DNA from: a candidate division WOR-1 bacterium RIFOXYB2_FULL_36_35
GTDB lineage: Bacteria; Margulisbacteria; WOR-1; XYC2-FULL-46-14; XYC2-FULL-37-10
NCBI GenBank assembly: GCA_001771505.1
Contig: MEUA01000019.1
Location: 1 to 60,057 of the forward strand
Direction of reading: 5' to 3'
DNA length: 60,057 bases
In this document: positions 53,046-55,021 of the stretch, one piece after another
How positions within the stretch are numbered: the first letter of the stretch is position 1
How the letters are laid out: each line of letters begins with the position of its first letter
Made by a program: the position numbers and the translations under genes
The notes under the pieces: model-generated
Seen by the model: the letters and a program-made list of their open reading frames with translations, nothing else
Told to the model about the DNA's origin: nothing
The model's database searches: none

Positions 53046-53073
53046 ATTTTACAACATCATAAAATTTTGTCAA
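53046..53073 (-). promoter_or_regulatory. Main promoter of the ribosomal super-operon
   Basis: On the minus strand a perfect -35 TTGACA (53068-53073) and a -10 TAAAAT (53046-53051) with 16-base spacing. Transcription would start near 53039, giving a leader of about 135 bases before rpmG that could hold regulatory structure; I see no clear hairpin-plus-T-run in it. The 220-base gap contains no gene. Confidence 0.65.
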
Positions 53074-53086
53074 GGGGTAATTTGAC

Positions 53087-53110
53087 AAAAGGGTAAAAGG
53101 GTAAAAGGGT
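53087..53110. repeat. Three tandem copies of AAAAGGGT
   Basis: AAAAGGGT occurs three times in a row, immediately followed by AAAAAA, between the super-operon promoter and the stop of the lectin-fold protein gene. It is just upstream of the -35 of the ribosomal promoter and on that strand reads ACCCTTTT. Confidence 0.6.
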
Positions 53111-53124
53111 AAAAAATGCAAGGT

Positions 53125-54039
53125 TTAAGTGGGCAAGTCCTTGGCAAAGCGAACGCCGACACTATTGCTCCGACCATCGGCATTATCGAAGCAATGATAA
53201 TTACTCCGCAAGTAACCTTCATTGTCGTCGTGCCATGAACCGCCTCGCTGATAAAATTTAAATAGTTGATATGTTTGGCTATGATAGTCGCTCATCCATT
53301 GCCAAACAGTTCCTATTAACCCTAAGAATCCTTCTCCTGTCTTTCGTAATTTAGTCACATCGCTTGTTCCACCGCCCGAACCTATGACCGCGACAATTCT
53401 GTTGTCGTTATCATCAATGGGCATTATATTATCTGGATATTTTTTCCCATCCGTACCAGCAGCAGCTCTCTCCCACTCTTTCTCTGTTGGAAGTCTTAAT
53501 CCTAACAGGGAAGCTAATGCTGTTGCCTCTGTATGACTAAGAAATACCATAGGAGAATTGGCCTTGCCCTCATCAGTCTTTTCAATAGAAATTGCAAGCG
53601 ATTTGGCCAATCGATCTTGAGGATTATTAATAATTTTTGCTACTTTTTCAGGCTCTAATTCAAGCAATTTTTTAAATTGTCCATTAGTAAACGGCGTTTC
53701 AGCTAACTCGCATCCTGCAAAGTCAGTATCATTTAATCGCTGATAAATAAATTTTCCAGGCGCCAATCTAACCATTTTAATTCCAATTTGTTTTGCTAAA
53801 CTCGATAAATCTTTCAAAAAACAACCAAAAGCGGCAAGCTTACCAGGATCAACCATTGCTCTGTGCAGCATATTCTTTGTAAAAGGAAATCCATAGGCTA
53901 TAACATCTACGATAAATTCCTCTGTTAACGTCGTATCTCCGGAAGATTTTATCTTTTCAAAGCTTAGATATAACTCTTTTATCGGTCTTCTTTCTATTGT
54001 CTTATCCAAATCAAAAGATACTACCTTTTTATATATCAT
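53125..54039 (-). CDS. Two-domain protein: shared N-terminal domain + formylglycine-generating-enzyme-like (C-type-lectin fold) domain
   Basis: 304 residues from ATG 54039. This start is chosen because its N-terminus (MIYKKVVSFDL) aligns with the start of the divergent neighbour (MINSKVISFNL) and because a promoter overlaps the longer frame. Residues 1-85 form a helical domain shared with the neighbour (VxSFxL…RP…AxGFP…M). Residues about 88-304 are an FGE-sulfatase/SUMF1 domain: MVRLAPGKFIY, SHTEATALASLLGLRLPTEK, EWERAAAGTDGKKYP, GTVWQWMSDYH, RGGSWH…GVRF. The catalytic Cys pair of true FGE is missing (only one Cys, in YHCF), so enzyme activity is unlikely. The final segment (265-299) has the codon pattern of a diversity-generating-retroelement variable region. 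No signal peptide. Confidence 0.85.
   Translation of the reverse strand: MIYKKVVSFDLDKTIERRPIKELYLSFEKIKSSGDTTLTEEFIVDVIAYGFPFTKNMLHRAMVDPGKLAAFGCFLKDLSSLAKQIGIKMVRLAPGKFIYQRLNDTDFAGCELAETPFTNGQFKKLLELEPEKVAKIINNPQDRLAKSLAISIEKTDEGKANSPMVFLSHTEATALASLLGLRLPTEKEWERAAAGTDGKKYPDNIMPIDDNDNRIVAVIGSGGGTSDVTKLRKTGEGFLGLIGTVWQWMSDYHSQTYQLFKFYQRGGSWHDDNEGYLRSNYHCFDNADGRSNSVGVRFAKDLPT
53140..53249 (-). other. Candidate hypervariable (VR-like) segment of the lectin-fold domain
   Basis: Codons between the invariant-looking RGGSW and GVRF are almost all of the form NNY (CAC, GAC, GAC, AAT, GGT, TAC, AAT, TAT, CAT, TGC, TTC, GAT, AAT, GAT, GGT, AGC, AAT, AGT, GTC). That is what results when AAC/AAT codons of a template are mutated at their adenines. 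The segment is also richer in G+C than its surroundings. No template repeat or reverse transcriptase is in this window. Confidence 0.45.
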
Positions 54040-54110: not shown

Positions 54111-54157
54111 ACAACCTGAAATTATTCAATTTTATCTTCGAAAAATAAATAGTGAGA

Positions 54158-55021
54158 ATGATTAATAGTAAAGTAATATCTTTTAATTTAACAACTGTAG
54201 TTAATAGGCCTTATACCGCCGCTCAATTACTACTTGCTTGCCTAGAAAATCGGGGGGCAAACGATGACGAAACAGCAAAAAAGCTACAGGCATTTGGATT
54301 TCCTGTTCCCCTTACTCGATTAAAGGCGATCATGAAAACAGATCAATTTATGGCCATACTTGTCAGCCTAGCAGATAAAGATGATCGTGCCAAAATAACA
54401 AAGCTTGCAAAAGAACTTATCCCAGCCCCACAAATTGTTCAGCCACCGCCGCAAAGGGAAGAAAATACGAGAACCTCACCAATACCAACAATGGCAAATC
54501 TTTTAGCTAAATATTTATCTCCATCAGATCTTGAATTAATAGCCTCTGATGCCGGTCTATACACACCAGGAATTGCCCAAAGCGGAAATGAAGAACTATA
54601 TGCATTAAACATAATAAAGGCCGCAATAAAAGAAGAAAGACTTGAGGCTCTTTTAGCCAATGCAATAGAAAGAGCCCCTGTCATTGAATCAGAATTAAAC
54701 TCAACAGATAGAAGCTCAAATGATGTTAATAGAAGAAGACCAATTAGCCTTTCTCCTCAACTTCAAAGAGAAACAGTAGCCATTATATCTGGAATGTTTT
54801 CTGTGGAAGATTTAAGACTGGAAGCAGCGGGAGTAGGTATAAATATAGCATCAATAAATGTTTATTCCGGTAGCGGAGAAACTATCACATCAAATATTGT
54901 TAAAGGAGCTATCAAAGAGTGCAAATTAATAGAATTAATTGCCGCATTGAGAGAAAGATATTCACAAAACCAAGAATTATATAATTTAGAACGGAAGATA
55001 TTAGCGCAACAATCAACCTAA
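54158..55021 (+). CDS. Adaptor-like protein: shared N-terminal domain + two effector-associated (death-like) repeats
   Basis: 287 residues from ATG 54158 (a GTG two codons earlier is possible). Residues about 3-88 match the N-terminal domain of the divergent lectin-fold protein (KVISFNL, NRP, AFGFP, then a Met-containing helix). A proline-rich linker follows (PAPQIVQPPP). Two ~65-residue helical repeats come next: LAKYLSPSDLELIASDAGL through IIKAAIKEERLEALLANA, and ISGMFSVEDLRLEAAGVGI through IVKGAIKECKLIELIAALRE. Their L(F/L)S..DL….A…G…..I..G……..I(V/I)K.AI+E.+L..L pattern resembles bacterial effector-associated domains, which are homotypic adaptor modules in conflict systems. Cytoplasmic, with no enzyme domain. 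The assignment is from pattern memory and needs a profile search. Confidence 0.7.
   Translation: MINSKVISFNLTTVVNRPYTAAQLLLACLENRGANDDETAKKLQAFGFPVPLTRLKAIMKTDQFMAILVSLADKDDRAKITKLAKELIPAPQIVQPPPQREENTRTSPIPTMANLLAKYLSPSDLELIASDAGLYTPGIAQSGNEELYALNIIKAAIKEERLEALLANAIERAPVIESELNSTDRSSNDVNRRRPISLSPQLQRETVAIISGMFSVEDLRLEAAGVGINIASINVYSGSGETITSNIVKGAIKECKLIELIAALRERYSQNQELYNLERKILAQQST

Follow-up and report, generated by a model that had tools for sequence, protein, structure and literature searches.

A lectin-fold gene joined to a repeated N-terminal domain is a candidate remote or former target of a diversity-generating retroelement in a WOR-1 bacterium

The product of the gene that we call T1 is probably a sensor-type protein with a C-type-lectin-fold tip that a diversity-generating retroelement (DGR) diversifies in trans, or did so until recently, which would make the gene a remote or former target. 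T1 sits on contig C19, the whole of which (60,057 nt) is the window analyzed here. The source genome is a draft MAG (1.95 Mb, 67 contigs, 96% complete) and falls in an order that includes Candidatus Saganbacteria, since the reverse transcriptase (RT) of a genome of the same order, G008, is identical to that of the Candidatus Saganbacteria record JACRPM010000007.1. An RT and its accessory protein Avd would copy a template repeat, misreading template adenines, and the resulting cDNA would take the place of the T1 3′ terminus between roughly the RGGSW motif and the constant block that precedes the stop codon. T1 would be one of at least three targets (T1, T2, and T3), and three further genes, U1, U2, and U3, would make up a second family with a related but weaker case. 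T1 would be served by an unassembled cassette elsewhere or would be a relic.

The features of T1 and of related genes are given in Table 1. The T1 stop codon occupies 53125-53127. The ORF can be extended upstream to a TTG at 54129, but the ATG at 54039 appears to be better placed, since that methionine is the first residue of other N-domain family members. The FGE-sulfatase match (PF03781, E 1.8e-21) covers residues 135-330 of the 334 in the longest ORF, and the lectin-fold domain extends to the C-terminus, with the hypervariable tail as its C-terminal end. An earlier sequence-only reading had proposed just this arrangement, an FGE/C-type-lectin-fold C-terminus with RGGSW...GVRF right before the stop, and it was borne out. 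The PDB relatives of the domain are formylglycine-generating enzymes (6muj, 2q17), to whose domain family T1 adds the N-domain and the hypervariable tail. Treponema denticola TvpA (2y3c), like T1 a C-type-lectin-fold protein and itself DGR-variable, is a weak match (E 0.0012) that spans T1 residues 178-257 only and leaves the N-domain unmatched. A structure predicted from the one sequence had a mean pLDDT of 36.8 and was not used. A full-length homolog with the N-domain is encoded in a genome of the same class, G025 (BLASTP, 2e-31).

Table 1. Coordinates of T1, its parts, and related N-domain genes (window positions unless a locus is named).
Feature	Position	Strand	Basis or remark
T1, candidate DGR target gene, 304 aa	53125..54039	-	ORF; PF03781 match; start from family alignment
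N-domain of T1, first ~75 residues	53809..54039	-	Profile match, E 3.2e-40
FGE-sulfatase (C-type-lectin fold) domain of T1	53140..53727	-	PF03781; PDB relatives
T1 variable region core, 25 codons between RGGSW and GVRF	53158..53232	-	T1/T2 pN; T1/T2/T3 alignments; spectrum tests
T1 3′ constant block GGCGTTCGCTTTGCCAAGGACTTG, 24 nt, candidate initiation-of-mutagenic-homing (IMH) side	53134..53157	-	T1/T2/T3 alignments
Second hypervariable block, just before RGGSW	53248..53286	-	YHSQTYQLFKFYQ in T1, SCHEEYSNEVQVMI in T2
Inverted repeat TTTTGTCAA-N8-TTGACAAAA, 3′ of T1 stop	53065..53090	.	Absent from T2 and T3
W2, divergent neighbor of T1	54158..55021	+	N-domain 54158-54376; C-terminal EAD1-like 54749-54994, weaker 54503-54679
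U1, second N-domain family	L095:1894-2583	-	Hypervariable tail ending ALRLVEDK
U2, second N-domain family	L013:14062-14739	+	Hypervariable tail ending ALRLVEDK
U3, second N-domain family	L110:1484-1912	+	Hypervariable tail ending ALRLVEDK

Searched at the DNA level with the T1 tail, the genome gave only T2 (contig C14, which begins within the gene) and T3 (L009, C41:1-87) as clear matches. All three tails are open frames; T1 is complete, and T2 and T3 are cut by contig ends. T1 and T2 share 95.5% nucleotide identity over 289 nt of the body. Identity drops to 51% over the 39 aligned positions before RGGSW and is 62% over the next 93 positions, from RGGSW onward. The pN between T1 and T2 is 0.46 in the tail versus 0.03 in the 109 codons of body next to it (0.07 when a longer part of the body is taken), and it reaches 0.57 in the second hypervariable block. 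In T1, T2, and T3 alike, the tail ends before the stop with an identical 18 nt, CGCTTTGCCAAGGACTTG, the last 18 nt of the constant block and an IMH-like constant 3′ sequence. No conserved 3′ hairpin common to T1-T3 was found downstream of their stops. The hexamer ACCTTG lies 3′ of the stop codon in T1, T3, U1, and U2, variable-tail genes that belong to two families. The second hypervariable block in T1 and T2 is not accounted for by copying of the canonical tail from a template. The contig that bears T3 starts inside the variable region, as is expected if the population is heterogeneous, and other causes are possible.

Genuine DGRs with FGE-like targets, comprising RT, Avd, template, and variable repeats, are present in the same order and class. 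RT matches were obtained in 16 of 57 relatives. A T-type query, with A written at the variable columns of the T family, found templates adjoining RTs in G037, G028, and G018, and a U-type query did so in G008, G009, G013, G020, and G028. Mismatches between template and variable repeat fall on template adenines at 18/18 positions in G028, 15/15 in G008, and 11/12 in pair a of G018. The relatives' RTs bear an IGNL(A/T)SQ motif, two of them matched the phage RT family phrog_1423, and the accessory protein of G009 matches Avd (NF033474, 120.5 bits against a cut-off of 80). RT fragments in G001 were rejected as a DGR RT, as by eye their sequence resembles a group II intron RT. The DGRs of Saganbacteria (JACRPM010000007.1, JACRKQ010000065.1, and JAGVQF010000002.1) resemble the T1 case in that their targets are FGE/C-type-lectin-like and have their variable region at the extreme C-terminal end. 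They differ in that RT and template adjoin the target and the N-domain is absent, whereas the T1 genome has targets and no assembled cassette. None of the four genomes with N-domains has an RT match, and the RT-bearing relatives examined have no N-domain.

The sequence-only reading had placed neither template nor RT in the window, which is correct, and the same holds for the whole draft genome. No RT was found with PF00078 or with a profile of five relatives' RTs, and no Avd was found; DNA searches of the draft assembly with T1, with the inferred T-type template, and with the U-type query found no template. The genome-wide search for a template repeat beside an RT, which that reading had put forward as its check, thus came back empty, but in a 96% complete draft that is broken at these genes. 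Three T-type N-domain fragments lie at contig ends (both ends of C12, and C44), and the assembly is interrupted within or at these genes on C12, C44, C14, and C41, so that a missing cassette contig is plausible. Neither the target protein nor either 3′ block matched anything in viral contigs, and the target protein also had no match in GTDB contigs or phages. Loss of the cassette is just as plausible as its having escaped assembly. One form of the reading favored here is that the lineage lost the DGR that once diversified T1, and that the tail is now frozen. Open-frame targets in a 96% complete genome that lacks a cassette would fit such a loss, as would the body pS of 0.12-0.15 between T1 and T2, which indicates that the copies are not very young, and the clean signature no longer visible in T2. 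That every tail is still an open frame, and that the breaks just described may hide the cassette, count on the other side, and we regard a relic as possible but somewhat doubtful.

The best evidence for adenine templating at T1 comes from the spectrum of differences. The DGR spectrum derived from the relatives was set against three null spectra in a log-likelihood test. The T1/T3 pair (25 differences at 54 positions) favors the DGR spectrum by +3.2 to +6.5 nats, and so appears to fit it no worse than a genuine retroelement pair: the G018 pair, used as the positive control, gave +3.2 to +5.7 nats, with the qualification that the pairs are non-independent and that the G018 pair also fed into the DGR spectrum. 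The pairs with T2 (T1/T2 and T2/T3) are ambiguous, at about -2.2 to +0.4 nats, and U1/U3 gave -0.8 to -3.1 nats. Pairs involving three other FGE paralogs, at -5.6 to -13.8 nats, do not fit a DGR. The counts of A/G to C/T differences are 16:4 for T1/T2 and 10:2 for T1/T3, versus 7:7, 7:6, and 9:6 in the FGE paralogs. Of the 45 variable columns of the T family, 15 contain no A. An adenine mask taken from the relatives' templates predicts the variable T columns (p down to 2.5e-5) and those of the U family (p 8e-6); as proof this was rejected, for other FGE paralogs give equal p-values and the test is non-specific. Codon-position bias showed no contrast between T1 and its closest paralogs.

A rival reading is ordinary diversifying selection without any retroelement: in an expanded family of FGE-domain proteins, the surface that binds the ligand would change, rapidly in every copy, along with a partner that the tail contacts. 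Such selection would account for the fast C-terminal tails of the FGE paralogs on C31 (L002), C44 (L003), and C20 (L001), where pN is 0.45-0.51 versus 0.14-0.18 in the bodies. It would also sit well with the failure to find RT, Avd, or template in the genome, with the indels in the region (a one-codon length difference between T1 and T2 in the second hypervariable block, and an internal length change in U2), and with the ambiguous T2 and U spectra. We nevertheless consider it unlikely, because the T1/T3 spectrum favors a DGR by several nats where the FGE paralogs are strongly against one, and because the T1/T2 identity switches abruptly and is followed by the identical 18-nt block. A swap of tails by gene conversion or recombination among FGE paralogs would draw on a genome rich in such paralogs and in repeated N-domains, but the search with the T1 tail clearly matched T2 and T3 only and no donor was found for any of the three tails, which makes it very improbable.

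Diversification of T1 by a DGR had been suggested in the sequence-only reading in part from the composition of the tail. From RGGSW to GVRF, the share of NNY codons is 77%, compared with an average of 47% over the gene, but other 30-codon windows of T1 reach 80-87%. The G+C content of the tail is indeed high (0.50 vs. 0.36), but the top sliding window of the gene has 0.52 (sliding-window mean 0.376, sd 0.060). NNY codons number 21/25 in T1 and 15-20/25 in other FGE paralogs of the genome. NNY and G+C bias were therefore rejected as proof of a DGR, as other stretches of T1 equal both and the counts of the paralogs are similar. The codons taken as an immutable framework hold up in part: GCC and most of TTG are constant, but both CGG codons differ among the copies (CGG/CAT/GAG and CGG/CAG/CAG). 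What speaks for a DGR-type variable region is instead the sister copies, the T1/T3 spectrum, and the DGRs of the order and class, set against T2 and U comparisons that have no clear adenine signature. The guess of a DGR was probably right, mainly for reasons other than those given for it.

The N-terminus of T1 belongs to a highly repeated family. A census with a profile built on 19 members counted 29 copies of the ~75-residue N-domain in the source genome, 43 in G007, 35 in G025, and 3 in G005; 70 further genomes of the phylum had none. The domain is found at the extreme N-terminus, joined to FGE domains, to EAD1-like regions, to HEAT-like repeats (recognized by eye in G025), or to stretches that match no known family. 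It gave no significant match in Pfam or PDB, so no described EAD or death-like family was matched. The whole W2 protein scores 29.2 bits against PF19955 (cut-off 24.2), with its single stretches under the cut-off, and an N-domain protein on C23 has an EAD1-like region at 37.9 bits; in the source genome EAD1 occurs only at N-domain proteins. Pfam detected no effector domain (peptidase, TIR, or nuclease) among the ten N-domain proteins scanned. The lectin-like tail of U1-U3 differs from the T type, and U1 shows homology to the protein that the DGR of G008 targets (E 1e-9). Effector-associated domains likewise recur in many copies within one genome, joined to varied partners (PMC7159879; PMC8195603). 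By analogy, we view the N-domains as a candidate adaptor repertoire. Through its N-domain, the variable sensor may be linked to further proteins with that domain, some of them with EAD1-like regions.

Published work already describes conflict-system sensors of the FGE/CLec type that DGRs diversify, and also remote targets (Kaur 2020, PMC7159879; Kaur 2021, PMC8195603; Dore 2024, PMC10907252). Those sensors and T1 have in common a C-terminal FGE/CLec variable domain, an N-terminal adaptor-like region, and several targets per genome. T1 is unlike them in having no STAND, vWA, or MoxR component, an N-domain that is not a Pfam EAD, and no effector recognized among the scanned N-domain proteins. 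In the open-access literature searched, we did not find a paper that connects DGRs to Margulisbacteria, WOR-1, or Saganbacteria. If the preferred reading, trans diversification of T1 by a DGR, is true, retroelement-diversified sensors extend to the Margulisbacteria side of the tree and are there joined to an undescribed, massively repeated N-terminal domain. The N-domain would offer a direct handle on which partners and what output such sensors have, a question that published work on conflict systems leaves open. More speculatively, and with little confidence, in a few Saganbacteria dozens of adaptor-domain copies might link DGR-diversified lectin-fold sensors to partners, a lineage-specific network of anticipatory recognition with one trans-acting cassette and several targets. 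N-domain genes are also clustered, with up to about ten on one contig (C27 and C152 of G025, and C117 of G007).
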